DNA from: an uncultured Gammaproteobacteria bacterium
GTDB lineage: Bacteria > Pseudomonadota > Gammaproteobacteria > PS1 > Pseudothioglobaceae
Assembly: GCA_902556205.1 (NCBI GenBank)
Contig: CACDVH010000014.1
Coordinates: 1-37,817, forward strand
Direction: 5' to 3'
DNA length: 37,817 nucleotides
This document shows positions 14,127-27,050 of the stretch, piece by piece. The stretch's first letter is position 1. Each line of letters opens with the position of its first letter. The notes under the pieces were generated by a model. It ran no database searches. It worked only from the letters and a program-made list of their open reading frames with translations, and was not told where the DNA came from. The position numbers and the translations under genes are program-made.

Positions 14127-14831
14127 ATGGAATATTTTTTACAAGACGGCGACTTTGTCGGCGTATCTTTCTGGATTGTCTCAGTAGCAATGGTTGCTGC
14201 AACTGTATTCTTTTTTTATGAAGGAATGGCAGTAAAGAAAGAGTGGAGACTTTCAATGACTGTTGCTGGACTAGTGACATTAGTTGCGGGTGTTCATTAT
14301 CTCTACATGAGAGACTACTGGGTTGCTTCGCTTATCGCTGGTGAGGCTCAGTCTCCAATTGTCTACAGATACATCGACTGGTTAATTACAGTGCCTCTAT
14401 TGATGATTGAATTCTTTATTATTCTTAAGGCGGTTGGTGCTGCAGTCTCTTCAAGTTCATTCTGGAGACTACTCATAGGTACCCTAGTTATGCTAATTGG
14501 TGGTTACCTTGGTGAAGCAGGCGTCATGTCAGCTAGCCTAGGATTCATTATAGGTATGATTGGTTGGGCTGTTATCATCTGGGAAATCTTTGGTGGAGAG
14601 GCAAGTAAAGCCGCAGAAGCTAATGCAGGTGTAAAAGCAGCTTTCAATGCGCTTAGACTAATCGTCCTCGTTGGCTGGGCAATCTATCCACTAGGATACA
14701 TTTTCGGCTACATGATGGGCTCCGTAGACAACGGCACTCTGAATATCGTATATAACCTTGCAGATTTTGTTAACAAAATCTTATTTGGTTTGATCATTTG
14801 GAATGTTGCTGTTAAAGAATCAGAAGCCTAA
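14127..14831 (+). CDS. Proteorhodopsin, green-type light-driven proton pump
   Basis: 234-residue seven-helix retinal protein of the inner membrane. Key residues are present: K217 (DFVNKI) for the retinal Schiff base, D84 (RYIDW) as proton acceptor, E95 as proton donor and H57 paired to the acceptor, which together indicate outward proton pumping. The tuning position is L92 (DWLITVPLLMIE), as in green-absorbing variants. No cleavable signal is obvious, unlike many proteorhodopsins. It is monocistronic with its own promoter and hairpin terminator. Carotenoid/retinal genes (crt, blh) are not in the window, so retinal must come from elsewhere. Confidence 0.96.
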   Translation: MEYFLQDGDFVGVSFWIVSVAMVAATVFFFYEGMAVKKEWRLSMTVAGLVTLVAGVHYLYMRDYWVASLIAGEAQSPIVYRYIDWLITVPLLMIEFFIILKAVGAAVSSSSFWRLLIGTLVMLIGGYLGEAGVMSASLGFIIGMIGWAVIIWEIFGGEASKAAEANAGVKAAFNALRLIVLVGWAIYPLGYIFGYMMGSVDNGTLNIVYNLADFVNKILFGLIIWNVAVKESEA

Positions 14832-15714: not shown

Positions 15715-15846
15715 ATGAAATATAAGATGAAACCTGAAAAAATGTGCAAAACTTGTGGCAAGCCCTTCACCTGGAGAAAGAAATGGCGAAAGGACTGGGA
15801 GAATGTACTATATTGCAGTGAAAGGTGTAGACGAAATAAAACTTAA
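15715..15846 (+). CDS. DUF2256 small zinc-ribbon-like protein
   Basis: A 43-residue gene, short enough to be missed. It has four cysteines as CxxC (CKTC) and YCSERC, around the conserved [15 protein letters not shown] block, the full signature of DUF2256, which probably binds one metal ion. No ribosome-binding site is obvious, and MKPEKM four codons on is an alternative start. DUF2256 genes often accompany photolyase/cryptochrome-type genes and TIGR03643 proteins in marine bacteria (from memory); a TIGR03643 protein is found about 5.5 kb downstream. It diverges from the MORN gene. Confidence 0.82.
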
Positions 15847-16643: not shown

Positions 16644-17078
16644 TTAAATTTTGTCTAATTCATTTAAGGTATATAACTCTTTTGCAACCTTACTGTATTT
16701 TTCGTAGGTACTATTCATGACTTTTTCTAACCATTTTTTTGCCTCCCCAAGATCCTTATTAACACCAATCCCACCGATGTAGGAGGCACCAATCGAGAAC
16801 TGTGCAGGCGCATAACCAAGGTTTGCTGATTTAAGCCACCAATCAAAACCAGCCTCGTCACTCTGAACTACCCACATACCCTCTTTCATATACATCGTGC
16901 CAAATTCATACATTGCTCTAGGATGGCCCCTGGTTGCGAGTTGGCTTATTTTATAAAGCTCTTTAGCAGATTTTTCATACTCACCCGCCTGATCAAAGGC
17001 TATTGCTCTTTTAAGATCTGCATTAGCGCCGAGTGAGAGAGCAGTTAATGCAATCAATACTGTATATTTAATTTTCAT
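16644..17078 (-). CDS. Exported Sel1-repeat protein
   Basis: 144 residues: signal peptide (MKIKYTVLIALTALSLGANA), then helical TPR/Sel1-like repeats, including a good Sel1 unit (WLKSANLGYAPAQFSIGASY...GVNKDLGEAKKWLEK) at about 81-119. Sel1 proteins act as periplasmic adaptors in bacteria; the partner is unknown. The start lies about eight bases after a TAGAAT -10 that belongs to the 11-bp-block promoter described separately, so the message is nearly leaderless and no ribosome-binding site is seen. Confidence 0.8.
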   Translation of the reverse strand: MKIKYTVLIALTALSLGANADLKRAIAFDQAGEYEKSAKELYKISQLATRGHPRAMYEFGTMYMKEGMWVVQSDEAGFDWWLKSANLGYAPAQFSIGASYIGGIGVNKDLGEAKKWLEKVMNSTYEKYSKVAKELYTLNELDKI

Positions 17079-17085
17079 GGGTTCT

Positions 17086-17141
17086 ATTCTAGTATCCTGA
17101 AATGAAGATTGAATGTAGATTAAGAGTTCTTTAAATAAAGA
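17086..17141 (-). promoter_or_regulatory. 11-bp-block promoter, copy 1 (Sel1 gene)
   Basis: Read on the minus strand: blocks TCTTTATTTAA, AGAACTCTTAA and TCTACATTCAA, then exactly 17 bp and the -10 TAGAAT (17091-17086). The spacer contains a fourth, similar block (TCTTCATTTC). The third block occupies the -35 position, as expected for a PhoB/OmpR-like activator. Confidence 0.65.
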
Positions 17142-17161
17142 TTAACTTTGCGTTTAGCTGG

Positions 17162-17353
17162 CTAGCCGCAGGTCCCACCATATCGACTTCGAATAATAAT
17201 TTCCTTAGCTACTGAAGAGCTAATATTAAATTTGCGCGACAAATATTCTAAACTTTTGTGTTGATAGGTGTAGAGCATCACCATCATATAAATTTCATCA
17301 TCGTTAACATGTGATTTATTTAAATGCTGAAATGATTTTTGACCCCTTGGCAT
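17162..17353 (-). CDS. Small helix-turn-helix-like protein, unknown
   Basis: 63 residues, basic at both ends. The segment HKSLEYLSRKFNISSSVAKEIIIRSR reads like a helix-turn-helix (recruiting and recognition helices around residues 32-58), similar in form to sigma-region-4 or small DNA-binding regulators, but no family is recognised. No ribosome-binding site is evident. It stands alone between the Sel1 gene and a small exported protein gene on the same strand. Confidence 0.5.
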   Translation of the reverse strand: MPRGQKSFQHLNKSHVNDDEIYMMVMLYTYQHKSLEYLSRKFNISSSVAKEIIIRSRYGGTCG

Positions 17354-17411
17354 AATGGGAATATTTTACTGTTAATTATTTATTATGTCTAATTGACTAA
17401 ACTGTAGTTGT

Positions 17412-17762
17412 TTAAAAAGCCTTATCGATTGTGATTGATTTTTCATCGCCAAAAGTATCAATTTTTAGATTAGTGCCTGAACGCGTGGAATAAATTGGCC
17501 CCTTGCCTCTTAGCGCCTTATTCCACTTTTTAAATTTAAGTAACCTAGCAGAGTTTTTATTAATTGATATTTCTGATTCATTAACTAGAATTCCATCGTT
17601 ACAACTAATTTTCCTTTTATTTATTTCATAAGTAACTTGCGCAGAAAGTGGAGGGTCCTTTGCCATCATACAAATCTGGTCATGACTAAAACTGCTAACC
17701 TCAAGTGAGGCAGCAGCAGTTTTTAGGGTTATGGCGAGTGAGAGAGCAAGAAATATTTTCAT
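17412..17762 (-). CDS. Small exported hypothetical protein
   Basis: From ATG 17762 the product is 116 residues with a signal peptide (MKIFLALSLAITLKTAAA). An in-frame start seven codons earlier would weaken that signal. The mature part has two cysteines (QICMM and ISCND), likely a disulfide, and is rich in lysine and serine. No family is recognised. A CATATAAT-like -10 lies shortly upstream on the minus strand. Confidence 0.6.
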   Translation of the reverse strand: MKIFLALSLAITLKTAAASLEVSSFSHDQICMMAKDPPLSAQVTYEINKRKISCNDGILVNESEISINKNSARLLKFKKWNKALRGKGPIYSTRSGTNLKIDTFGDEKSITIDKAF

Positions 17763-17870
17763 TAGAAAATAATTATATGTCACTAGGAACTATATCTAAA
17801 TTTATTTCAAATAATTGAGATTTATGTATATATTTTTTTACACTAAGTTAAATATTTATTACATTATGTA

Positions 17871-17879
17871 TGGTATACT
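17871..17879 (+). promoter_or_regulatory. Extended -10 promoter of the membrane protein/XRE pair
   Basis: TGGTATACT combines an extended TGG with a TATACT -10 (17874-17879), about 30 bp before the ATG at 17911. No good -35 is visible. Confidence 0.5.
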
Positions 17880-17910
17880 TTACATATAAAAGAATTATTT
17901 AATTTACCCA

Positions 17911-18330
17911 ATGAATATAAAAATAAGAAACACTTTAGCCGAGATTGCTGGCGCATTAATTGCGATGACTTGGATGTGGCTTAACTTACTTGATGCCTTA
18001 ACAATGTCAATACAGTCAGTTTCAAAAGTACTGGCCCAAGGAATTGGAATCAGCATTATTTTAATTATTGCTCTTCACATCATTTTCAATATTCTCTCGT
18101 CAATCTTAACTGGACAGTACGAAGAAAATATTGAGGATGAAAGAGATAAAATTTATGAACTTTATGCTTTGCAGCTCAGTAGTGCTATTTTTGGGATATC
18201 GATTGTAACTACTTTTGTCTTATTAGGATGGTTTAATCTTAATATAACCACAGGTCTTATTGCTATTACTTTTTCAGGATTTATTGCGAGTATTTTTAGT
18301 CTTTTATTAAAGATTTATCTTTATAGATAA
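17911..18330 (+). CDS. Four-span membrane protein paired with an XRE regulator
   Basis: 139 residues with four predicted spans (about 10-30, 42-66, 88-108 and 114-137) and an acidic cytoplasmic loop (YEENIEDERDKIYELY) between spans 2 and 3. The layout and the DERDK loop resemble DUF2178-type membrane proteins, which are often followed by a tiny Cro/C1-type regulator, as here two bases downstream. The pair probably works together, the membrane protein perhaps sequestering or sensing for the regulator; that is inference. Confidence 0.65.
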   Translation: MNIKIRNTLAEIAGALIAMTWMWLNLLDALTMSIQSVSKVLAQGIGISIILIIALHIIFNILSSILTGQYEENIEDERDKIYELYALQLSSAIFGISIVTTFVLLGWFNLNITTGLIAITFSGFIASIFSLLLKIYLYR

Positions 18331-18332
18331 CA

Positions 18333-18551
18333 ATGTTTAAGAAAAAGATTCATATAGAAAATGCGGTGAGGAAACTCAGGTTCAATAACGATGAGATGAC
18401 TCAGCAGCAGCTTGCAGAAGAAGTCGGTGTTTCTAGACAGACCATCGTTGCAATTGAAAAATATAAATACACACCATCATTAGATCTAGCGTTTAAGATA
18501 GCGCTGGCATTTGATATGGAGATACAAGATGTTTTTTTTATAAACCAGTAA
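18333..18551 (+). CDS. XRE-family (Cro/C1-type) transcriptional regulator
   Basis: 72 residues forming a single helix-turn-helix domain: MTQQQLAEEVGVSRQTIVAIE (about 22-42) followed by YTPSLDLAFKIALAFDMEIQDVF. This is the compact YozG/YgzD-type regulator with no effector domain. It starts two bases after the membrane-protein stop and so is co-translated with it. It is likely to autoregulate the pair. Confidence 0.9.
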   Translation: MFKKKIHIENAVRKLRFNNDEMTQQQLAEEVGVSRQTIVAIEKYKYTPSLDLAFKIALAFDMEIQDVFFINQ

Positions 18552-18569
18552 TTTTTTCAGGAGGAAGTA

Positions 18570-18761
18570 ATGGAAATATCAGAGCTAGACCCAAAAATAA
18601 AAGATACTCAAGAGGAGCTTATCAAACATCAAGAAAAAACTCGAAAATTTAAGGAGTATGTACAGGGGTTATTTATAGATCTCTACACTCAAGATGAATT
18701 TAATAGAAGGGTAGATGCCATATTTAACGAAACCTTTAAAAGAGATCAAAATGACGAATGA
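18570..18761 (+). CDS. Small acidic helical protein, unknown
   Basis: 63 residues, highly charged and predicted all-helical with coiled-coil character (KDTQEELIKHQEKTRKFKEYV). A strong AGGAGG lies six bases before the ATG, good evidence that it is translated. Its last 11 bases overlap the next small gene. Family not recognised. It lies 18 bp after the XRE regulator and is probably in the same transcript. Confidence 0.6.
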   Translation: MEISELDPKIKDTQEELIKHQEKTRKFKEYVQGLFIDLYTQDEFNRRVDAIFNETFKRDQNDE

Positions 18762-18906
18762 AAATAATCAATTATTAGATCAAATGAGTAGTATTGATGA
18801 TAGCTTAGAAAAACTTAAGCAAAACTCTAAGAAAATCAGTGATCAAGTAGGTTTAATCTGGTTAACAATATTGGGTTACATCATCTATTTGGAGTTTTTT
18901 AAATAA
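18751..18906 (+). CDS. Small single-span membrane protein with coiled coil
   Basis: I start this at ATG 18751 (51 residues), inside the end of the preceding gene, because AAAGAGAT lies upstream. A charged N-terminal helix (SSIDDSLEKLKQNSKKISDQV) precedes one membrane span (GLIWLTILGYIIYLEFF) at the extreme C-terminus, a tail-anchored layout. Family unknown. The 11-bp overlap with the upstream gene suggests translational coupling. Confidence 0.5.
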   Translation: MTNENNQLLDQMSSIDDSLEKLKQNSKKISDQVGLIWLTILGYIIYLEFFK

Positions 18907-18922
18907 AAAGGATTAAATAAGC

Positions 18923-19495
18923 ATGAAAGAATATCCAGTAAAGCTAAAAATTGACTACTCAGAATCCTCAAATCGCCTTACCGCAATCTTTAGGCTGATT
19001 CTCGTTATTCCAATTGTCATTATTCTGGCTCTTATCTCAACCTATGCTGAAGCTTTGTCATTAGCTATTGCCATGATGATACTCCTTAAAGAAAAATACC
19101 CAAGGTGGTGGTTTGATTGGAATATTGGTATCACTAAATTTGCCTACAGAATTGCAGCGTATGTTTTTCTCATGAGAGATGAGTACCCATCAACGGATCA
19201 TGATCAGTCAGTTCAAATTAATATCCCTTACCCTGATGTTAAAAATGATTTAAAGAGATGGATGCCACTTGTTAAATGGATACTGGTGATCCCTCACATT
19301 ATTGTCCTTACCGTTCTTTTTATCGGAGTTGTGCTCTCAACGATTGTGGCATTATTTGCCATCTTGTTTACAGGCAAATACCCAAAAGGAATCTTTAACT
19401 TTGTTGAAGGTTTCTTAAGATGGACGCTCAGGGTGAGTGCATTCGCACTTTTATTAACTACGGATGAATATCCACCATTTAGACTCAGAGAATAG
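18923..19495 (+). CDS. DUF4389 membrane protein
   Basis: 190 residues with two hydrophobic hairpins (about 20-55 and 113-153). Signature elements of DUF4389 are all present: YPRWWFDWN, MRDEYPSTD, INIPYPD, RWMPLVKWILVIPHIIVL, FTGKYPKGIF and TTDEYPPF. Two internally related halves, each ending in a DEYP motif, suggest an ancient duplication. Function unknown. It is the last gene of the run that starts with the membrane protein/XRE pair. Confidence 0.85.
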   Translation: MKEYPVKLKIDYSESSNRLTAIFRLILVIPIVIILALISTYAEALSLAIAMMILLKEKYPRWWFDWNIGITKFAYRIAAYVFLMRDEYPSTDHDQSVQINIPYPDVKNDLKRWMPLVKWILVIPHIIVLTVLFIGVVLSTIVALFAILFTGKYPKGIFNFVEGFLRWTLRVSAFALLLTTDEYPPFRLRE

Positions 19496-19529
19496 TTTTA
19501 AGAATTAATACAATTTAAAAATCTATACT

Positions 19530-19841
19530 CTAATAACCGCCCATTTTTGACTTAGGTCCGAGCTTATGCTTAGAATGCAGCTTCTCAATCAAATCAGGGT
19601 CTGGTGAAGGAAAGCTAGTCCCATATTGCCCATTATTCGATTTAACAATTGGCAATTCATCAACTTCCAAACCTGCATAACATAGCAACCCTCTATTCGC
19701 TACCTCTGTTTGAATATTTTGTGGGACAGATGAGGAGTTCATCCACCCACATAAATCATTATTGGACCAATCATCAAAATATCCTGCGAATGAAGGAGTT
19801 ATGAAGAATGAAGCAAGAATAATGAACTGTAGCTTTTTCAC
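19530..19841 (-). CDS. Exported small protein with DDWSN-DLC motif, paralogue 1
   Basis: 103 residues: signal peptide (MKKLQFIILASFFITPSFA), then GYFDDWSNNDLCGWMNSSSVPQ and a second cysteine in RGLLC, ending with GTSFPSPDP and a basic tail. It is clearly related to the protein at 22352-22666, sharing FDDWSNxDLCxW, VPxxI, RxLLC and GTxFPSP. The paired cysteines may form a disulfide. The family is unknown to me. It carries its own copy of the 11-bp-block promoter, and about 24 bases separate the predicted transcript start from the ATG. Confidence 0.7.
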   Translation of the reverse strand: MKKLQFIILASFFITPSFAGYFDDWSNNDLCGWMNSSSVPQNIQTEVANRGLLCYAGLEVDELPIVKSNNGQYGTSFPSPDPDLIEKLHSKHKLGPKSKMGGY

Positions 19842-19870
19842 GAGAAATAAATATTGACAAAAAAAACATC

Positions 19871-19926
19871 AAATATATGCTATTTTTTTGAGTTTTAGAT
19901 GTAAATTAGGTGTTGTTTAAATGAAC
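19871..19926 (-). promoter_or_regulatory. 11-bp-block promoter, copy 2 (DDWSN paralogue 1)
   Basis: Minus-strand blocks AGTTCATTTAA, ACAACACCTAA and TTTACATCTAA, then 17 bp and the -10 TATATT (19876-19871). The spacing is identical to the other four copies. Confidence 0.65.
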
Positions 19927-19936
19927 TGATTATTTC

Positions 19937-21142
19937 ATGATTGATATCTCACGCAAAAAGTTTAATGGTGAAATGAAACTAACCGTTACTCGTGCACCCA
20001 CTCATGCAACCATAAAAGAGCTTAGGGATGAGCTTAAACTAGTCAAAGATATTGCTGATTACTGGGAAGAGAAATCAAATAAGAGAGCATTTGGTGAAAT
20101 TCAAAAGAATAATATATCTTTTGAAAAGTGGAGAGAAATCTACTTGCAACATGGATGGATTGAAATTTCAGAATATCACTGTTTTTACAATCCTAAGAGC
20201 GTATCGATTCAGTATGAGTCAATAACAGCGCTTCCATCAATCGAAGGAAATAGAGACAATGAGCAGAGCGGAACTTGGGCATCCTATGAGATGGACAAAT
20301 CATTTTCATCTTTTTGCAAGGTCTGGAATAAGTACTATCAAACATGGCAATTTAGGCTCAATAAATTAGAGAGAGAGCGCTTTGATATGAGGAGAGTCTC
20401 TCAAACACAAACCACGAGAATAGAGGAGGCGCTCTTTGTACTTCTTGGATTGAGCCCATCAGTACAAGGCACAACAGGTTTTGAAAACTTTAGTCTTAGT
20501 GAGAGATTGTTTGAAACAGATAGCATCGAGTATCAAGACTACCAAGGAAATAATCTCATTATCAACAGCAACTTATATTCCAATGATGGTTATGGACATC
20601 TTGAATGGTATCTGAAGCAGAAAGAGGAGTATATCCTTATTGAAAGACTAGCCACAAGAGGTCAGCCCTCAGATTTTAGCGACAGACTCTCATCAATAAA
20701 GTTTAATGAATGGGCTTATAAGAATCACTATATAGAGGACAGGGTGCCGATCATTAGAAATAGTAAAGAGAGTCCTTTTGGTGAGGGATTTGCCTATAAA
20801 CTTTTCAGCTCATTATTGGAAGTTGGATACATCAAAGGCACATTTGATTATACTTGGGAGCTCGCAGATGGCATGTCTTGGACCTCGCTACATTATCTAG
20901 CTTCAGAGCTCTCAAAAAGAAATCTTATTAAAACATCTAGCCCCTTTGAAGACATTCAAAAATACATCAACTATGCATCATCATATCCACTTAAGGATCA
21001 AGTCGTCTTAACATCGCCTGATCTACTCAGTCACACCAATGATGATAAGATTTATACGCAAGAATGCGATTTAATTGATTCTGCTATTAATAATATCGAA
21101 CCAGATCAAGCAATCGAAATTAAAACATTTAAGGAGGAGTAA
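19937..21142 (+). CDS. Large hypothetical protein, first of a three-gene overlapping unit
   Basis: 401 residues, soluble, charged, with many aromatic residues and no signal peptide or membrane span. I recognise no domain. The N-terminal third is helical (TIKELRDELKLVKDIADYWEE), and a C-terminal stretch (DGMSWTSLHYLASELSKRNLI) looks like a helical DNA- or protein-binding segment. Its stop shares one base with the start of a 57-residue gene (TAATG), which in turn overlaps the TIGR03643 gene by ATGA, so the three are a unit. No ribosome-binding site of quality precedes the ATG at 19937. Confidence 0.6.
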   Translation: MIDISRKKFNGEMKLTVTRAPTHATIKELRDELKLVKDIADYWEEKSNKRAFGEIQKNNISFEKWREIYLQHGWIEISEYHCFYNPKSVSIQYESITALPSIEGNRDNEQSGTWASYEMDKSFSSFCKVWNKYYQTWQFRLNKLERERFDMRRVSQTQTTRIEEALFVLLGLSPSVQGTTGFENFSLSERLFETDSIEYQDYQGNNLIINSNLYSNDGYGHLEWYLKQKEEYILIERLATRGQPSDFSDRLSSIKFNEWAYKNHYIEDRVPIIRNSKESPFGEGFAYKLFSSLLEVGYIKGTFDYTWELADGMSWTSLHYLASELSKRNLIKTSSPFEDIQKYINYASSYPLKDQVVLTSPDLLSHTNDDKIYTQECDLIDSAINNIEPDQAIEIKTFKEE

Positions 21143-21315
21143 TGAAAATACTAGAGTTATTAGACGCTGAGTTGGTATTAGTCGATCTTGAGGTCAATCT
21201 TGGAGACAACAAACAGAATAGTCCCACTCTTTGTGCTAAATACAATGGACAAATTATCCCCTTGAACACCCCTGATGGAAGGCCAATACTAATGAATAAA
21301 GATAATGCAATATGA
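21142..21315 (+). CDS. 57-residue hypothetical protein between two overlapping genes
   Basis: A short gene easily missed: ATG 21142 is preceded by AAGGAGG five bases upstream, and the product (MKILELLDAELVLVDLEVN... ending MNKDNAI) is acidic and soluble. The start overlaps the previous stop by one base, and its stop overlaps the next start (ATGA). The strong ribosome-binding site and perfect head-to-tail overlaps argue that it is real. No family recognised. Confidence 0.6.
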   Translation: MKILELLDAELVLVDLEVNLGDNKQNSPTLCAKYNGQIIPLNTPDGRPILMNKDNAI

Positions 21316-21512
21316 TTAATATAAACGAGGTCATAGAGATGGCATGGAGCGATGATGTCACTTTCTCAGATATTGAAAGAGAGATAGGAATCAAAGAGCC
21401 TGAAGTTAAACGCATTATGCAGGCAAACCTCAAACCGAGTTCTTATAAACTATGGCGAAAAAGGGTTCGTTGGATCAAAGAAAAGAAAAAGAAGTCTAAT
21501 AATTTCCCTTGA
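21312..21512 (+). CDS. TIGR03643/DUF2805 family protein
   Basis: 66-residue basic protein matching TIGR03643: IEMAWSDDVTFSDIEREIGI, EPEVKRIM and LKPSSYKLWRKRV. The first half looks like a helix-turn-helix (about 17-40) and the tail is lysine-rich, so nucleic-acid binding is plausible but unproven. I recall this family as commonly adjacent to photolyase-related genes and DUF2256 in marine bacteria. Here it ends an overlapping three-gene unit of otherwise unknown proteins. Confidence 0.82.
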   Translation: MININEVIEMAWSDDVTFSDIEREIGIKEPEVKRIMQANLKPSSYKLWRKRVRWIKEKKKKSNNFP

Positions 21513-21544
21513 GCTTGGTGAGTAATTTTTTGCTTAACTTGTGA

Positions 21545-22129
21545 TTAATAAAAACTAATCTCAGAGACTGAAACATCAGACTGAAAATCTCGACCATAAG
21601 CAACGACAGCGAAGTCTCTTATTTGATCAACTTCTAAACCTCGCTCTCTGTATTTTGAACTCTTAAATTTTTTGAACGGCAAATCCACTTGCTGCCAGTT
21701 GGGACTTGTGTCAAATGTGTGGTAATAATAGTCACTCGGTGACCAAGTGAAATAAGTTCGAATCATGACATGGTAGGTCTCACCATTACCCCTGACATTT
21801 AGCCTAACCCCCTCAAGACCTTCACCGTCTTTATCAGCTTTATGGATCAACTGGAACATCTCTGGTTTATTGAATAGTGATATTTTTGATCTAAATTGTA
21901 CAAACCCTCCATTATTCCTTGTGCTGACGTCCCCAGTTAGTCTCAAATAAAACCTATCTCCATCCTGCAGCAATGTAGTAGCTCCCTCCGAGACACCACC
22001 CATTACCTGATCGCTTAGATATTTCCATTCTTTTGCCATAGTTGGCTCAATTGGAAACTGAAGATTATCTTGGGCATAAGTAGCTAATGAAGCAAGAACT
22101 ACAAAAAACAAAATTACTATTTTTTTCAT
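21545..22129 (-). CDS. CIA30-family exported protein
   Basis: I start this at ATG 22129 (194 residues) because it opens a signal peptide (MKKIVILFFVVLASLATYA) and has GGTGG upstream, inside the preceding gene's last codons. The mature domain is CIA30/NDUFAF1-like, a jelly-roll fold: VMGGVSEG, NNGGFVQFRSKI, GVRLNVRGNGETYHVMIRT and QQVDLPFKKFKSS. In eukaryotes the family assists complex I assembly; bacterial periplasmic members are uncharacterised and may bind carbohydrate. Third gene of an operon with the 69-residue membrane protein and DDWSN paralogue 2, under an 11-bp-block promoter. Confidence 0.82.
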   Translation of the reverse strand: MKKIVILFFVVLASLATYAQDNLQFPIEPTMAKEWKYLSDQVMGGVSEGATTLLQDGDRFYLRLTGDVSTRNNGGFVQFRSKISLFNKPEMFQLIHKADKDGEGLEGVRLNVRGNGETYHVMIRTYFTWSPSDYYYHTFDTSPNWQQVDLPFKKFKSSKYRERGLEVDQIRDFAVVAYGRDFQSDVSVSEISFY

Positions 22130-22133
22130 TCGT

Positions 22134-22343
22134 TTACCACCACGATAGCACTCTGCCATTTCCAGCGATAATAAGTAGGCATGTAACGACGTGCAGAACA
22201 ATCCAAAACGTTCTAAAGAGGAGCGCTTTCTTCACATCTGTTTGGGCAATGGGTAAAAACTCAGGCTTATCCTCATCATTGAGGCCGATTGGCATGCCAA
22301 CTGTTCTTGCCCAAACCTTTAAAAATCTTCTTTGACCACTCAT
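22134..22343 (-). CDS. Small single-span membrane protein
   Basis: 69 residues: a basic and acidic N-terminal half (about 1-38) and one membrane span (about 44-61, TFWIVLHVVTCLLIIAG). No family recognised. It lies 8 bp after DDWSN paralogue 2 and ends 4 bp before the CIA30 start, so it is the middle gene of a three-gene operon. Confidence 0.6.
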   Translation of the reverse strand: MSGQRRFLKVWARTVGMPIGLNDEDKPEFLPIAQTDVKKALLFRTFWIVLHVVTCLLIIAGNGRVLSWW

Positions 22344-22351
22344 GGCTTTAT

Positions 22352-22666
22352 TTAAAGTTTGACCTTGTAATTGAAAATAAATCTTATGCCGCTTCCGTTG
22401 TGTTTATTAGTGTTTTTATTAGTAGAAGGTGAGGGAAACAATGTTCCGTGTTCTGAAGAAACAGGCTCCTTAATTGAGACTTCGATGATTTCAGGATTGA
22501 CCAGGCACAGTAAATCTCTGATTTCAATTTCCATTAATATTGGATCAGGAACTTGAAGGGCATCTACCCATCTACAGAGGTCTTCATTCGACCAGTCATC
22601 AAAAGTATCTGCATATGAAGCTGAACACATGCCTAAGAAAGTTAAGACGATTAATAATTTTTTCAT
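22352..22666 (-). CDS. Exported small protein with DDWSN-DLC motif, paralogue 2
   Basis: From the third of three consecutive ATGs (22666) the product is 104 residues. That start coincides with the predicted transcript start seven bases after TATAAT, giving a leaderless message; the two upstream ATGs would lie outside it. A signal peptide (MKKLLIVLTFLGMCSASYA) precedes FDDWSNEDLCRWVDALQVP, RDLLC and GTLFPSPS, shared with the protein at 19530-19841. The tail is unrelated. First gene of an operon with a membrane protein and the CIA30 protein. Confidence 0.7.
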   Translation of the reverse strand: MKKLLIVLTFLGMCSASYADTFDDWSNEDLCRWVDALQVPDPILMEIEIRDLLCLVNPEIIEVSIKEPVSSEHGTLFPSPSTNKNTNKHNGSGIRFIFNYKVKL

Positions 22667-22672
22667 CATCAT

Positions 22673-22728
22673 ATTATATGGCTAGATACCTCACCTTAAA
22701 TGAAGATTAGGAGTTGTTTTCATAAAGA
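22673..22728 (-). promoter_or_regulatory. 11-bp-block promoter, copy 3 (DDWSN paralogue 2/CIA30 operon)
   Basis: Minus-strand blocks TCTTTATGAAA, ACAACTCCTAA and TCTTCATTTAA, 17 bp, then a perfect TATAAT (22678-22673). This is the closest of the five to a canonical -10. Confidence 0.7.
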
Positions 22729-22841
22729 GAAACTCATTGATAAATGGTAAAAAAAGTAAAAATAAACTCGATTGAGATAGTGTATATTTATCCCAGTTTA
22801 AGCAAAGTAAATTTTTAAAAAATCATGAAAAGTGGGTAGCA

Positions 22842-23387
22842 ATGAGTAATAAAGTTATTAACCCAAAAAATAAATCTATCCTATATTTTGCCCTAGGCTC
22901 TACTCTAGCATTTATCCTCTATATATCCCTTGTGTTAAATGCAGCATCTGGCTGTTTTAGGCTGGATAGCGGGTCAAACTCCCTAGGTTTATCTTTTTCT
23001 TATACCCTAGAGATGGTTCTAGATTTCTTTGCAGCTAGAAACCAAGAGCAGCTCCTTTGCTATAGCCAGTTTCTGAAAGTGTGGGATATAATTTTTGCCA
23101 TGATTTATACCTTGATGTATGGCTCATGGATTTTATATCTGCTAAATAAGAAAATATTGTTAATTGTGCCTACACTTGGAATGGTTGCAGACTGGTCAGA
23201 GAACTTTTCTGAGCTGCTTATGATAGAAAGCTATGTAGCTTTTGGCTCAATATCACAATCACTCATTTCTATTGGATCGGGGATTAACTCGTTTAAATGG
23301 ATAATGTCAAGTCTTACCTATCTCATTGTCATAATTGGAATAATCGTTGTGATTAAGACATTCATGGTGAGAAATAAATCTAATTAA
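22842..23387 (+). CDS. Four-span membrane protein, unknown
   Basis: 181 residues with predicted spans at about 13-33, 80-98, 103-120 and 155-174 and an extracytoplasmic loop after the first span holding two cysteines (SGCFRLDSGS and LLCYSQ), possibly disulfide-bonded. A VADWSENFSELL segment in the third loop is conserved-looking but I cannot name a family. No clear ribosome-binding site. It stands alone on the plus strand. Confidence 0.6.
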   Translation: MSNKVINPKNKSILYFALGSTLAFILYISLVLNAASGCFRLDSGSNSLGLSFSYTLEMVLDFFAARNQEQLLCYSQFLKVWDIIFAMIYTLMYGSWILYLLNKKILLIVPTLGMVADWSENFSELLMIESYVAFGSISQSLISIGSGINSFKWIMSSLTYLIVIIGIIVVIKTFMVRNKSN

Positions 23388-23467
23388 ATATTTGTTATTG
23401 CTACATACATAAATATTGTCAGAAACAAATAGCCCACAACAGTCAATGCGTTTTTAAATACTCTCAT
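23384..23467 (-). CDS. Miniprotein, 27 residues, single membrane span
   Basis: MRVFKNALTVVGYLFLTIFM followed by YVAITNI: a basic start and one membrane span. AAGAGG lies three bases before the ATG and GGAGGAGG a little further, inside the end of the 62-residue gene that it overlaps by 14 bp. It is the third small gene in the unit driven by the block promoter at 23801-23856. Confidence 0.45.
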   Translation of the reverse strand: MRVFKNALTVVGYLFLTIFMYVAITNI

Positions 23468-23642
23468 TTCCTCTTACCTCCTCCTTAAGAAATGAGATAT
23501 TATCAAGATAGGCATCTTTTAAATGGCTATCCATCATTAATTCCATGTCTCGAAGCTCTTTAAATTCTACCTCTAGTGCTCTCTTTGTCTTTCGCCTATC
23601 GTTTGGCGAGCCATTTTTAGTATTGTATTTTGCTAGTGTCAT
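23454..23642 (-). CDS. Small charged hypothetical protein
   Basis: 62 residues, soluble, with a basic N-terminal half (KNGSPNDRRKTKRALEVEFKEL) and an acidic helical remainder. AAGGAT precedes the ATG. Family not recognised. It lies between two single-span miniprotein genes: 18 bp after one and overlapping the other by 14 bp. Confidence 0.5.
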   Translation of the reverse strand: MTLAKYNTKNGSPNDRRKTKRALEVEFKELRDMELMMDSHLKDAYLDNISFLKEEVRGNESI

Positions 23643-23660
23643 TGGTTAAATCCTTAAAAT

Positions 23661-23762
23661 TTAATATTGAATAAAACTACCTATAAAACTCACTGTCACG
23701 TACATAAAACTGAGCATAAATGCCATACAAGCAGTTATCCATAAGACTAATTTAGTTTCCAT
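23661..23762 (-). CDS. Miniprotein, 33 residues, single membrane span
   Basis: METKLVLWITACMAFMLSFM followed by YVTVSFIGSFIQY: one long hydrophobic segment, with an FMYV motif also seen in the 27-residue miniprotein nearby. It is the first reading frame after the block promoter (about 35 bases of leader). The ribosome-binding site is weak. Confidence 0.45.
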   Translation of the reverse strand: METKLVLWITACMAFMLSFMYVTVSFIGSFIQY

Positions 23763-23800
23763 AAATCTTTTATTATTAGTTAATTATTACAAGAAATGAA

Positions 23801-23856
23801 ATTTTAAATAAGCACAATTATTATTAGATGAAGATTAGAAGTAGTTTAGATAAAGA
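23801..23856 (-). promoter_or_regulatory. 11-bp-block promoter, copy 4 (miniprotein unit)
   Basis: Minus-strand blocks TCTTTATCTAA, ACTACTTCTAA and TCTTCATCTAA, 17 bp, then TAAAAT (23806-23801). Blocks 1 and 3 differ at one position only. Confidence 0.65.
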
Positions 23857-23937
23857 ATCTCATATTCGTTTTATTAGCCAAGAGATCAATTTTTCTGGGC
23901 TATAATAAAATGTTATGATTAATATTAAGGGGTAAAT

Positions 23938-24609
23938 ATGAAATCAATAGTTGATAATCAAATTGAATCTGCAGAAAAAGAGTGGCTTGACCTATGGAAG
24001 AAAGGTCCAACTCGACTTCGATGGGACAAAGTGCCACTTCAAGTTGGGGACTTAGCGCCTGATTTTAAATTGCGAGATACATCAGGAAAATCAGTTCATT
24101 TGGGTGATTTTTGGAGTAATGGCCCAGCCTTAATTATGTTCTGGAGGCACTATGGTTGTAGTTGCGGGGTTGATCGCGCCAATAGTCTGAAAAATGAATA
24201 TGCCGATTACATTAAGCTGGGTGCTTCCGTAGTCGTGATTGGTCAAGGTGAGCCTGAGCGCTCAAAAGAATACAGTCAAAGAAACAGCTTACCTTGCCCT
24301 GTCTTATGTGACCCAACCTTTAGTGTCTATGAGGCCTATGACCTATTAGAAGGTAAGCCTTCTCAAATAGTCTATGACGCACCTGATGAGTATCTTCATA
24401 TCGATTATGAGACTGGGGCAGAATTGCAGAAGTCGCGTCATGGAACAGATGGCGGATTAGTAGATAGTCCATGGCAGCTGCCTGGTGAATTTGTCGTTGA
24501 TCAATCAGGCATAATTCGCCTTGCTCACCGCTATCAACATTGTGAAGATTGGCCTACACCTTCGATTCTGATTCCCGCCATTAAGGAAGCTGTCTGGGAA
24601 ACCAAATAA
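23938..24609 (+). CDS. Peroxiredoxin-like protein (AhpC/TSA fold) with CxC motif
   Basis: 223-residue thioredoxin-fold protein: VGDLAPDFKLRDTSGK opens the AhpC/TSA domain and the redox site is FWRHYGCSCGVDRA, with C74 and C76 in a CxC arrangement rather than the CxxC of thioredoxins. The FWRHxGC pattern fits the PrxL2/SelL-like AhpC/TSA_2 group, some of which carry selenocysteine. The C-terminal half (PGEFVVDQSGIIRLAHRYQH) completes the fold. AAGGGGT precedes the ATG and TATAAT is at 23901-23906. Cytosolic; a peroxide or thiol-disulfide role is inferred. Confidence 0.8.
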   Translation: MKSIVDNQIESAEKEWLDLWKKGPTRLRWDKVPLQVGDLAPDFKLRDTSGKSVHLGDFWSNGPALIMFWRHYGCSCGVDRANSLKNEYADYIKLGASVVVIGQGEPERSKEYSQRNSLPCPVLCDPTFSVYEAYDLLEGKPSQIVYDAPDEYLHIDYETGAELQKSRHGTDGGLVDSPWQLPGEFVVDQSGIIRLAHRYQHCEDWPTPSILIPAIKEAVWETK

Positions 24610-24636
24610 ATCTCAATTTGCTATCAGGTTGAAATA

Positions 24637-24670
24637 AGTTATTTGAGAAACTAACGTTTCTTAAATAACT
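24637..24670. terminator. Long hairpin, likely bidirectional terminator
   Basis: A 15-bp stem with a single G-T wobble and a four-base loop: AGTTATTTGAGAAAC (24637-24651), TAAC, GTTTCTTAAATAACT (24656-24670). It lies after the peroxiredoxin gene on the plus strand and covers the stop codon of a miniprotein on the minus strand. It lacks a long T-run. Confidence 0.65.
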
Positions 24671-24741
24671 ATCCAACCCATATACATTCCGACCATTACG
24701 AATACGAATGTAAGTAGAATCATTTTGACTAGATATCCCAT
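24661..24741 (-). CDS. Miniprotein, 26 residues, single membrane span, leaderless
   Basis: MGYLVKMILLTFVFVMVGMY followed by MGWIVI: nearly all membrane span. The promoter TTGGAC-17-TATACT ends six bases before the ATG, so the transcript should start at or beside the ATG with no ribosome-binding site. A second miniprotein (26485-26559) has the same promoter at the same distance. The stop lies within a long hairpin. Confidence 0.45.
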   Translation of the reverse strand: MGYLVKMILLTFVFVMVGMYMGWIVI

Positions 24742-24747
24742 AATTTC

Positions 24748-24776
24748 AGTATAAGGTAGTTTTGACTCAGGTCCAA
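24748..24776 (-). promoter_or_regulatory. TTGGAC-17-TATACT promoter of a miniprotein
   Basis: On the minus strand: TTGGAC (24776-24771), 17 bp, TATACT (24753-24748). The stretch GTTTGGACCTGAGT resembles GTTTGGACTTTAGT at the other miniprotein promoter. It lies just past the end of the upstream Rieske gene. Confidence 0.55.
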
Positions 24777-24781
24777 ACCTC

Positions 24782-25909
24782 TTATATTATTTTATTGGCA
24801 TACCATTCAGAAAAAGCTGCAACATTTGCCTCCATTAATGTTGAGAATTGACCCTGAAGAGAAGTGGACTTATTGAGGCCCTTCTGTTGATTTTCAAGTG
24901 CGAAAATATCTTCGTCTAACGCATCATCAAGTCGCTGATAATATGCTTGGGACTTTTCTTTAAAACCAGGAAGTGTTGTTGTATTTTTTGGAAAACAAAT
25001 ACTCTGCCTAACACAACAACTCATCGACGTAATTGGGCTTGCTTCATAGACCCAAATTGCTTCTTGACTTGCTGCAAAAGTCATATTTGGAAAAATCCAG
25101 CTGTATCTAGCTCCAAGGCTCCAGGGAGCCTCTAAATTTTCCATTATCGGTAAAGCATTAATTTGATCCGCCTCTAAAAGTGCCCCTGTGCCTGTGGTAA
25201 ATCCAAATTGACTTGCAAAATCTCCCATTGTTTTATCAGCTTCTTCAGGCTTGTTATAAAGATTATCGATACTAGTTGGATGTACATTATTCAAATGGTA
25301 GTATTCATTAAAAACATCTAAAAAGGCTTTCCAATTACACTGCACCTCAAAAGTTGCACGCCTAGTTGTAACTAATTCATTCATAGACCAAGGCTGATGT
25401 AATTCAGAAAAATTACCAAGTTGATTAGATAAATCTGTTGGCTTATTTCCCAGAAAAACAAATAAAAAACCCTGCAATTCTTTTAATTTGTACTCAATTA
25501 AAGAATGCTCTGCAAAATCAAAACTGGGGTTTTCTTCCATTGTTTTAGCAAACTTTAAATTGCCATCTAGTGAGTATGTCCACCCATGAAAAGGGCAGCT
25601 GATAGCTTGACATTGACCACTTCCATCCAATAGTTTTGCGCCTCTATGGCGGCAAGTATTTGCATAAAGCCTCAGTTCTTTGTCTTGATCACGTATCAAA
25701 ACTAAGGCCTGGCCACAAAGCTCAAATACCTCATATTCTCCTGGATTTTCTAGCCTATCGGACCTGCCCAACCCAAGCCACTGATTAGAAAAAATACGCT
25801 CTTGCTCTTGGGTCAAGATTGAGTCCTCCCAGTAGCATTCGAAAGGCAGACTCCGTCTTTGAGGAGGTGGCAACTTACAAAGCTTTATTCGTTCAAGTAG
25901 TTTTTTCAT
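24782..25909 (-). CDS. Rieske-type oxygenase, alpha subunit (second copy)
   Basis: From ATG 25909 (375 residues; an in-frame TTG lies five codons upstream) this is a Rieske non-haem iron oxygenase: CRH (C86, H88) and CPFH (C105, H108) for the cluster, and DVFNEYYHLNNVHP (H205, H210) for the mononuclear iron, with a late acidic ligand expected near DALDEDIFALEN. Only modest identity to the 11430 protein, so it is not a recent duplicate. The branch resembles choline/betaine/carnitine-type oxygenases. No reductase lies nearby. Upstream, TTGAGT-16-TATAAG is a plausible promoter. Substrate unknown. Confidence 0.85.
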   Translation of the reverse strand: MKKLLERIKLCKLPPPQRRSLPFECYWEDSILTQEQERIFSNQWLGLGRSDRLENPGEYEVFELCGQALVLIRDQDKELRLYANTCRHRGAKLLDGSGQCQAISCPFHGWTYSLDGNLKFAKTMEENPSFDFAEHSLIEYKLKELQGFLFVFLGNKPTDLSNQLGNFSELHQPWSMNELVTTRRATFEVQCNWKAFLDVFNEYYHLNNVHPTSIDNLYNKPEEADKTMGDFASQFGFTTGTGALLEADQINALPIMENLEAPWSLGARYSWIFPNMTFAASQEAIWVYEASPITSMSCCVRQSICFPKNTTTLPGFKEKSQAYYQRLDDALDEDIFALENQQKGLNKSTSLQGQFSTLMEANVAAFSEWYANKII

Positions 25910-26025
25910 ATCATTTACTTTCAATTGTTTTGCTTATACCATCTTCCCACATAAACTCAAATGAGGCTTAATAATCTCACTACAGAATAGAATGAAAAGT
26001 GTGAAAGTAATCCTATAATAAGACC

Positions 26026-26448
26026 TTAATTACATTTTTCTTTTTGGTCAGTCATTTCACTTTTTCTTATTGGCATTGTATCAATAATATTGTGAATTTC
26101 TTTTAGTAATGAGGTGTCATTTGAATATGATTTATCTTCACCATCATAACCAATTAACCAAAGTCCATGTTTATTCTTATATCTTTCTGGAATAGTGAAT
26201 TTATCTATATCATCTCCAACAATTCTGATGTAAGTCAAACTTCTTTCCTCATTTTCACAGCTATTTGTTTTAAAAAAATCGTCAGTTTCATTAATAAAAT
26301 GAATATCTTTTGCAATAAAGAGAACTATTCTTCTGTCCCATGAAAATGAATTAATATAATCTTCTAAATCTATTTTCATGCTTGAATAACTCATGCCTGG
26401 AAACATTAACAAAGTTAACAACAGACACAATACTTTTATCCTGTTCAT
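26026..26448 (-). CDS. Exported DUF4174 protein
   Basis: 140 residues: a signal peptide (MNRIKVLCLLLTLLMFPGMSYS), then a DUF4174 domain, thioredoxin-like in shape: SFSWDRRIVLFIAKD, LWLIGYDGEDKSYS and the C-terminal IIDTMPIRKSEM, the family's most typical feature. Two cysteines (NSCEN and the penultimate residue) flank the domain. Function unknown. A degenerate resemblance to the 11-bp-block promoter lies upstream but lacks a proper -10. Confidence 0.75.
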   Translation of the reverse strand: MNRIKVLCLLLTLLMFPGMSYSSMKIDLEDYINSFSWDRRIVLFIAKDIHFINETDDFFKTNSCENEERSLTYIRIVGDDIDKFTIPERYKNKHGLWLIGYDGEDKSYSNDTSLLKEIHNIIDTMPIRKSEMTDQKEKCN

Positions 26449-26484
26449 CGTTTTTAATCACTTATAGAAGTAGGAGTAGTTTTT

Positions 26485-26559
26485 TCATACTCCCATCCAC
26501 CATAATTGAATAAGCGTTGCCAAAAGAAATCCTGTTAGTACTAAAGTGAGCAATCTCAT
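26485..26559 (-). CDS. Miniprotein, 24 residues, single membrane span, leaderless
   Basis: MRLLTLVLTGFLLATLIQLW followed by WMGV: one membrane span with a single basic residue at the start. The promoter TTGGAC-17-TATAAT ends six bases before the ATG, exactly as for the 26-residue miniprotein at 24661-24741. No ribosome-binding site. Confidence 0.45.
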   Translation of the reverse strand: MRLLTLVLTGFLLATLIQLWWMGV

Positions 26560-26565
26560 AAATGG

Positions 26566-26594
26566 ATTATAAGTCAATTAGAACTAAAGTCCAA
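26566..26594 (-). promoter_or_regulatory. TTGGAC-17-TATAAT promoter of a miniprotein
   Basis: On the minus strand: TTGGAC (26594-26589), 17 bp, TATAAT (26571-26566). The upstream AAATGAAGTTTGGAC is shared, with a few changes, by two further copies that flank the agmatine-deiminase gene. Confidence 0.6.
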
Positions 26595-26672
26595 ACTTCA
26601 TTTTGCATGGGGGATAGAGTATATAAATGAGGATTTAAAGGGGGCTCCTCGATGCCCTAGAAGTTTAAAAAA

Positions 26673-26696
26673 TGTGCCTTAATAATTTAAGGCACA
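26673..26696 (-). terminator. Hairpin terminator of the small exported gene
   Basis: TGTGCCTTAA paired with TTAAGGCACA around a short AT-rich loop, 20 bp after the stop of the 81-residue gene. Confidence 0.75.
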
Positions 26697-26716
26697 GTTA
26701 TCAAATTATTTATGTA

Positions 26717-26962
26717 TTAGACATCCAGTAATCTTAAAGCACCATTAAGCAAGTCTTCTGACAAACCATGGTCACCAGAGTCATGCGCTTTGACACCTTG
26801 CTCGTGAAGCATAAGAGCAAAACTAATTAAAGTTGCGTGCTTTGTTTGGTCTAACATTGCAATTTTATCTTCAACTTCTGACTTTAGCATTGGACATGCC
26901 CCAGCAAAAGCCATAGAAGGCAAAAATAAAATCATAAAAGTTATAGAAAGTATTTTTTTCAT
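26717..26962 (-). CDS. Small exported hypothetical protein
   Basis: 81 residues: signal peptide (MKKILSITFMILFLPSMAFA), then a short helical mature part (KSEVEDKIAMLDQTKHATLISFALMLHEQGVKAHDSG...) with one cysteine and several histidines. It could bind metal or haem, but nothing specific is recognised. It has its own block promoter and a hairpin terminator, so it is a single-gene unit. Confidence 0.65.
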   Translation of the reverse strand: MKKILSITFMILFLPSMAFAGACPMLKSEVEDKIAMLDQTKHATLISFALMLHEQGVKAHDSGDHGLSEDLLNGALRLLDV

Positions 26963-26994
26963 TTCGTCATTCCCAAGTTAATAAAAGAAATGCA

Positions 26995-27050
26995 ATTCTA
27001 GAATAAATACAAATCTTTAAAGTGGAGTTTAGACGTTCTTTAAAAAAAGA
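26995..27050 (-). promoter_or_regulatory. 11-bp-block promoter, copy 5 (81-residue exported protein)
   Basis: Minus-strand blocks TCTTTTTTTAA and AGAACGTCTAA, then a weaker third block (ACTCCACTTTA), 17 bp and TAGAAT (27000-26995). The TTTAAAGAAC core and the distance to TAGAAT are identical to copy 1. Confidence 0.65.

Follow-up and report, generated by a model that had tools for sequence, protein, structure and literature searches.

Five promoters in a 37,817-nucleotide stretch of DNA from an uncultured gammaproteobacterium of the family Pseudothioglobaceae (the whole of contig CACDVH010000014.1, assembly GCA_902556205.1, called the window below) belong to a regulon whose operator is a run of 11-bp blocks set at a fixed distance from a -10 hexamer. 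A preliminary description had proposed such a regulon, as a new one, from the window alone. The observation holds, and the regulon, which is solid, is larger than first reported: a model of three blocks finds 67 sites at E < 0.01 (many of them members of its training set) in 17 of 29 genomes of the genus (Ca. Pseudothioglobus/SUP05), and a short distance downstream of them the same gene families recur. The open-licence literature on CreBC, photolyase, light regulons and SUP05/Thioglobus gave no description of it, which is weak evidence of absence. As for the activator, it is probably the CreB-like response regulator of the OmpR family encoded in the genus, a proposal drawn from sequence patterns and held with moderate confidence.

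Five promoters of one design

All five minus-strand sites of the three-block design are present in the window (Table 1). The coordinates first given are exact for sites 1, 3, 4 and 5, while site 2 lies one base higher than 19871-19926; the -10 hexamers are as described, and the C of the AAC/TAC in block 2 stands 34 bp from the -10 in every case. Invariant columns are T3, T4, T7, A10-A12, A15-C16, T20, A21-A22, T25, C27-A28 and A33, then T51, A52, A54 and T56 in the -10, and, apart from C5 and T9-A10-A11, block 2 has little in common with the others. Two repeats had been overlooked: a fourth one, TCTTCATTTCA (17108-17098), within the 17-bp spacer of site 1, and an additional in-phase block, ACTTCACGTAA (27061-27051), upstream of site 5. 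The ATG of the Sel1 gene comes 7 nucleotides (nt) past the -10 of site 1; a divergent open reading frame (ORF) has its first codon at 19937, 9 bp away from the upstream end of site 2; at site 3, ATGATGATG directly follows the TATAAT.

When each site is held out in turn, it ranks first among 75,496 window positions, with the blocks only or with spacer and -10 included; on 56 columns the held-out sites score 19.5-31.2, against 10.8-13.6 for the next best position. In a control, 40 first-order Markov windows were scored with a model built from sites 1-4: the best simulated score was 18.2 on 56 columns, against 19.5 for the held-out fifth site, and 21.5 on 33 columns, against 21.7, a small margin. 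This fifth site is the weakest of the five on both column sets.

Just upstream of site 1 lies a 63-residue ORF (17162-17353, minus strand) that looks by eye like a helix-turn-helix (HTH) protein and has no NCBIfam match.

Table 1. Coordinates of the sites, of the genes around them and of loci in related genomes (window positions unless a locus is named)
Feature	Coordinates	Strand	Remarks
Site 1	17086-17141	-	Blocks TCTTTATTTAA / AGAACTCTTAA / TCTACATTCAA, 17 bp, -10 TAGAAT; upstream of Sel1 gene
Site 2	19872-19927	-	-10 TATATT; upstream of DDWSN-type gene
Site 3	22673-22728	-	Blocks TCTTTATGAAA / ACAACTCCTAA / TCTTCATTTAA, -10 TATAAT
Site 4	23801-23856	-	Blocks TCTTTATCTAA / ACTACTTCTAA / TCTTCATCTAA, -10 TAAAAT; upstream of 33-residue miniprotein
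Site 5	26995-27050	-	Blocks TCTTTTTTTAA / AGAACGTCTAA / ACTCCACTTTA, -10 TAGAAT
Sel1-repeat protein, 144 residues	16644-17078	-	PF08238, 1.7e-8; N-terminus signal-peptide-like by eye
DDWSN-type small protein, 103 residues	19530-19841	-	Weak, sub-threshold Ish1 likeness (PF10281, E 0.039)
DDWSN-type paralogue, 106 residues	22352-22672	-	No Pfam match; first gene of a run that continues with 22134-22343 and CIA30
CIA30-family protein	21545-22129	-	PF08547, 2.2e-24
Miniprotein METKLVLW..., 33 residues	23661-23762	-	Downstream of a site in 9 of 17 motif-positive genomes
Protein MKKILSITFM...GACPMLKS, 81 residues	26717-26962	-	No Pfam match; follows a site in 7 of 17 genomes
Proteorhodopsin	14127-14831	+	Near the site cluster; context, no site match of its own
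TIGR03643-family small protein, 66 residues	21312-21512	+	Inside the site cluster; rival regulator candidate
Photolyase behind tRNA-Ser(GCT)	L083 1048-1179, L084 1563-1693 and others		
Extra OmpR-family regulator/kinase pair of G005	L271 6505-8666	-	Next to sugar ABC transporter genes; no counterpart found in the window's own assembly

A regulon within the genus

The assembly to which the window belongs, as its contig 14, has 1.65 Mb and is 92% complete. In this genome a first model, of 56 columns built from the five window sites, recovers them together with one convincing new site (C22:5104; E 0.005, the next best match having E 0.13), which has the same 17-bp spacer and a -10 TAAAAT, and precedes a lipocalin gene. 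Over 40 genomes, it finds matches in 15 of the 25 belonging to the genus, the source included, and in one of the 15 outside, a weak one (E 0.03). The 67 sites come from a second model restricted to the 33 columns of blocks 1-3, without spacer or -10, and trained on 47 of 51 distinct sites; the four first-model matches omitted were G027 and G022:C14, by choice, and two duplicates of the same letters. Among the 12 motif-negative genomes of the genus the best match of this model has E 0.018. Outside the genus, in a scan with stricter filters, 4 of 228 further genomes of the class have one match each (E 0.0077-0.0088, none stronger), where about 2.3 are expected at that threshold; among the genomes listed singly, the two assigned to the same family have no 33-column match. 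Nor do the sites fall at random or within genes, as a spurious motif might: in the sequence examined, 66 of the 67 are outside ORFs of at least 80 codons, and the exception overlaps a 128-codon frame on the strand of its own gene.

For the study of promoters we used 70 sites, that is, the 71 matches at E ≤ 0.02 minus one inside a 396-codon ORF of a motif-negative genome (G004:C41:15746). Three of them (G022:C34, G008:C4, G002:C8) were re-registered by one base, the model having aligned across an indel. Downstream of the 70 sites are DDWSN-type genes (13, or 14 with G002:C1 assigned by eye), Sel1 (9), the miniprotein (9), photolyase (8), the 81-residue protein (7), Adhesin_E-like proteins (6), CIA30 (4, in G002, G008, G009 and G015, where this gene has a site of its own), M3 oligopeptidase (4), a 131-residue protein (3), lipocalin (3), a HAD hydrolase (1, at a site of the own genome that is partial, model positions 13-33) and three unlabelled genes, G002:C1 among them. 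Pfam families were read from one representative each; for the DDWSN, miniprotein, 81-residue and 131-residue groups there was either no match above the Pfam cut-off or no scan. The targets had been described as small exported and membrane proteins; such families do recur, but photolyase, lipocalin and M3 oligopeptidase must be added to them. The small proteins of the DDWSN, 81-residue and 33-residue types thereby gain a likely context.

Could the five sites resemble one another by chance, or have been copied along with duplicated genes? Two of the five window genes are indeed DDWSN paralogues. This is hardly credible, however, when all leave-one-out ranks equal one and eleven labelled gene families follow the sites across 17 genomes, and the explanation is refuted by these ranks and this diversity together with the genus-wide matches and the outgroup scan.

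Promoter architecture and predicted leaderless messages

A TANNNT hexamer stands at a spacer of exactly 17 bp in 63 of the 70 sites. Among the 16 sites outside training (those absent from the 40-genome matches of the 56-column model, a search that did not include G040 and G042), it does so in 14, with one poor hexamer (TATCGT, at the HAD site); two of the 70, before the 131-residue gene in G015 and G024, have no -10 at 16-18 bp. The motif CTTYAY occurs 48 times outside blocks 1-3, in flanks to which the model is blind, 29 times at +34 and 7 times at -10, which is where a fourth or a zeroth repeat in phase with the others would fall. Between the end of the fourth repeat and the -10 there are 10 bp, the same distance as from TGTCAT to the -10 at pstS: within one genome, the Sel1 promoter reads CTTCAT-10 bp-TAGAAT and that of pstS TGTCAT-10 bp-TATACT. 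Conservation is at about the same level in block 2 (AACNYCTAA) and block 3, and the -35 place has the consensus ATYTAA, which does not resemble TTGACA.

The five sites would be activator-dependent sigma-70 promoters of a single regulon. Their putative operator consists of direct repeats of a CTTYAY half-site spaced by 11 bp, one helical turn, at positions 0, 1, 3 and 4, with a fixed AACNYCTAA block at position 2; not every promoter has all CTTYAY positions, and 10 or 21 bp separate the core of the promoter-proximal repeat from the -10. Given this proximity and a -35 place that does not resemble TTGACA, a bound activator would replace the -35 contact. Tandem 11-bp half-sites at the -35 place, at a fixed distance from the -10, form the class II layout of OmpR/PhoB-type activators, as had been noticed from the window; this geometry and similar half-sites in the promoter of a CreB-like candidate (see below) speak for an activator of this type, short of proof. 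An extracytoplasmic function (ECF) sigma factor using AAC as its -35 element was rejected by reasoning, without a search for ECF genes: 34 bp from the -10 is too far, and the -10 is sigma-70-like.

Many mRNAs of the regulon look leaderless, as predicted from the distance between -10 and start codon. This distance is 5-8 nt at 42 of the 68 sites with a -10 at 16-18 bp: in all cases for photolyase (8/8), Sel1 (9/9), Adhesin_E-like (6/6), CIA30 (4/4) and lipocalin (3/3), in 10 of 13 for DDWSN, in 1/1 for the 131-residue gene and 1/3 for unlabelled genes, and never for the 81-residue protein (0/7), the miniprotein (0/9), oligopeptidase (0/4) or HAD (0/1).

Association with photolyase and proteorhodopsin

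Within the genus, the motif accompanies photolyase and proteorhodopsin; the counts that follow are not corrected for phylogeny, and many of the genomes are incomplete. PF03441, the family of the UV-repair enzyme photolyase, is present in 16 of 17 motif-positive genomes (15 strongly; the match in the own assembly is weak, 28.6 bits) and in none of the 12 motif-negative ones. A proteorhodopsin-type rhodopsin is found in 11 of 17 (ten at E ~1e-48, that of G008 as a split frame) and again in 0 of 12, and it lies at most 3 kb from the Sel1 site in G000, G005, G010, G013 and G042. The small protein TIGR03643 follows the same pattern: 10 of 17, the copy of G040 having an internal stop, against 0 of 12, and all six motif-positive genomes of at least 90% completeness have it. 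The habitat of the motif-positive branch would be sunlit water, judging from its photolyase and rhodopsin genes.

Eight of the 15 strong photolyase genes have a site, and just upstream of six of these is tRNA-Ser(GCT), the other two having no tRNA call. In five genomes (G008, G009, G022, G023, G040), photolyase lies 12-16 nt behind tRNA-Ser(GCT) without the operator, so that control of this gene has possibly been rewired among close relatives; that of G015 has neither site nor adjacent tRNA-Ser(GCT), and that of G002 is unreadable.

A second, weaker-scoring rhodopsin (E ~1e-29 to 1e-33) is present in G000, G008 and G013 as well as in motif-negative G014 and G019; the own genome's copy, the more distant of its two rhodopsins, is at G000:C3:67779-68417. 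It may be an FArhodopsin, the flotillin-associated type described for Pseudothioglobus in the accessible part of one report (PMC10308929). Between proteorhodopsin and the Sel1 site, the window codes on its plus strand (15727-15846) for a DUF2256 miniprotein (PF10013, 2.7e-19), of a family that we take to be photolyase-associated.

A CreB-like regulator as the candidate activator

The own assembly codes for two proteins with the OmpR-family domain PF00486, PhoB and a CreB-like protein, and the gene of the latter adjoins that of a CreC-like kinase. Their best NCBIfam matches are CreB (237 bits, first of 97 families, with PhoB next at 179) and CreC (300 bits, first of 83, the next at 141); among named records, close relatives of this CreB include Candidatus Thioglobus, Ca. 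Pseudothioglobus and SUP05-cluster genomes. Of 20 creB loci, 19 have upstream sequence, and 16 of these promoters contain an exact CTTCAY-N5-CTTCAY, the other three being off by one base. Reading away from creB, the repeats are CTTCAT in motif-positive genomes and G003, and mostly CTTCAC in the other motif-negative ones.

Over the 29 genomes, the pair CTTCAYNNNNNCTTCAY was counted 93 times and a reversed control 13 times: 28 occurrences of the pair are in creB promoters (20 genomes), 10 in regulon promoters and 9 in promoters of an RND efflux gene (8 genomes). The own genome has it only twice, at creB and inside a DDWSN gene of the window (19790-19806). Among the 50 occurrences of which the surroundings were viewed, other intergenic pairs precede DsbD, RuvB, an MsrA-family gene (Pfam) and, below threshold, an outer-membrane-efflux-like gene, and most of the remaining ones are inside ORFs. 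Single cre-like pairs in motif-negative genomes (L252, L253, L254, L257) are those of DsbD in G001, RuvB in G001, G019 and G043, and the MsrA-family gene in G017. The RND efflux gene of eight genomes (L241-L247, L224), for three of which PF00873 was confirmed, has a clean cre-like array, with CTTCAT 10 bp before TATAAT in seven and 11 bp in the eighth, in both clades; it is likely a core CreB target. The cre/blr tag, as given in the accessible part of one paper, is TTCACnnnnnnTTCAC (PMC3660660). CreB is the best candidate because creB and RND promoters have the same CTTCAY repeats as the regulon, close to this tag. A direct repeat of the TTCACnnnnnnTTCAC type, exact as CTTCAY-N5-CTTCAY, is found in 10 of the 70 regulon promoters, most others having degenerate pairs along with AACNYCTAA.

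From these half-sites we infer binding and activation by the CreB-like protein, which would be driven by a signal through the CreC-like kinase encoded alongside. In the photolyase/proteorhodopsin lineage this two-component system would have come to control photolyase, lipocalin, CIA30, M3 oligopeptidase and small exported or membrane proteins, with a putative role in repair and envelope maintenance under sunlight.

Several observations weigh against this proposal. Block 2, despite its conservation, is not seen in phase at creB or RND promoters, so that a cre array alone does not describe the operator of the regulon; the array of creB is not among the matches of the regulon model, and an exact CTTCAY pair is present in those 10 of 70 sites only. 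The two proteins score below the NCBIfam equivalog cut-offs (237 against 273 bits, 300 against 356), hence their names, CreB-like and CreC-like only. The gene creB is present in motif-negative genomes too, with the segment KTINTHIK kept (at what is presumably the recognition helix), so that its presence does not track the regulon as TIGR03643 does, in counts that ignore phylogeny. G003 has a CreB 92% identical, yet no motif, photolyase or rhodopsin match. No creB was found in motif-positive G012, G018 and G022, which are 54-70% complete. Finally, a third regulator of the OmpR family is encoded in G005, next to a sugar ABC transporter, so that the count of only two such regulators applies to the own, 92%-complete assembly alone.

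Two readings were rejected on the way. The regulon model does not pick creB promoters: its weak matches near creB (three of five inspected, two judged by distance) belong to another element about 285 bp away. As KTINTHIK is kept, the difference between CTTCAC and CTTCAT at creB is no evidence of changed CreB specificity between clades.

Other regulators

A different lineage-specific regulator, such as TIGR03643 or an unrecognised HTH protein, could read the array, leaving to CreB only the cre pairs of creB and RND genes. The distribution of TIGR03643, the lack of tracking by creB and the lack of block 2 in creB and RND promoters all suit this alternative, which we regard as possible but unlikely. 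Indeed, DNA binding by TIGR03643 is a guess from its sequence, 66 residues seem few for an array of 33-55 bp, and the half-site with its 10-bp spacing to the -10 is shared with RND promoters, also in motif-negative G003 (11 bp) and G011. A little more doubtful still is a composite operator, in which the CreB-like protein would bind CTTYAY and a second factor restricted to the lineage, with TIGR03643 as candidate, would bind AACNYCTAA; this would make a switch for light or UV damage and envelope stress, devoid of any known photoreceptor family and acting on many leaderless messages.

PhoB, which would bind the repeats under phosphate starvation, is of the same family as the CreB-like protein, and the class II promoters of the Pho box have the same tandem 11-bp repeats, with 10 bp from repeat core to -10, as at pstS. 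It was nevertheless rejected as improbable: the pstS box of the same genome is of the TGTCA type, CTGTCATATTC/TTGTCATATTC and not TCTTCATNTAA, with a TGTCAT core where the five sites have CTTYAY, and the pstS promoter is absent from the own-genome matches listed for either profile. The genes differ as well, photolyase, lipocalin and CIA30 not being classical Pho genes. Light regulons of the LitR/CarH kind, where a MerR-type light receptor represses its targets in the dark, also have operators made of 11-bp direct repeats, and photolyase and lipocalin are typical of their content. Such a receptor is very improbable here and was rejected, since PF13411 (MerR_1) has no match at E ≤ 0.001 in any of the 29 genus genomes, against 12 of 14 control genomes, and a repressor would find no consensus -35 to cover.

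Relation to CreBC/BlrAB and region divergent from creB

The CreB-like protein and its kinase most resemble CreBC/BlrAB, in which TTCAY half-sites are in an 11-bp register (PMC3660660, PMC3962086, in their accessible parts); pairs of such half-sites are present in the genus at creB and RND promoters. By contrast, the arrays described here have up to five positions with a fixed block that is not cre, the regulator and kinase are below the equivalog cut-offs, and the accessible parts of these papers name no photolyase, lipocalin, CIA30 or small exported protein as a target. An uncultured ocean lineage gains a concrete regulon, whose operator is defined, whose genes are listed and whose regulator can be tested. 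The regulon suggests how the photolyase/proteorhodopsin branch may have placed genes of repair and of the envelope under a two-component system rather than under known light regulators.

Divergent from creB, a conserved stretch (L011 11296-11610 and orthologues) has a strong stem-loop (z -4.8) before an ORF of about 50 codons. A known RNA family was rejected, there being no Rfam match; the stretch may be a regulatory leader or a small RNA.

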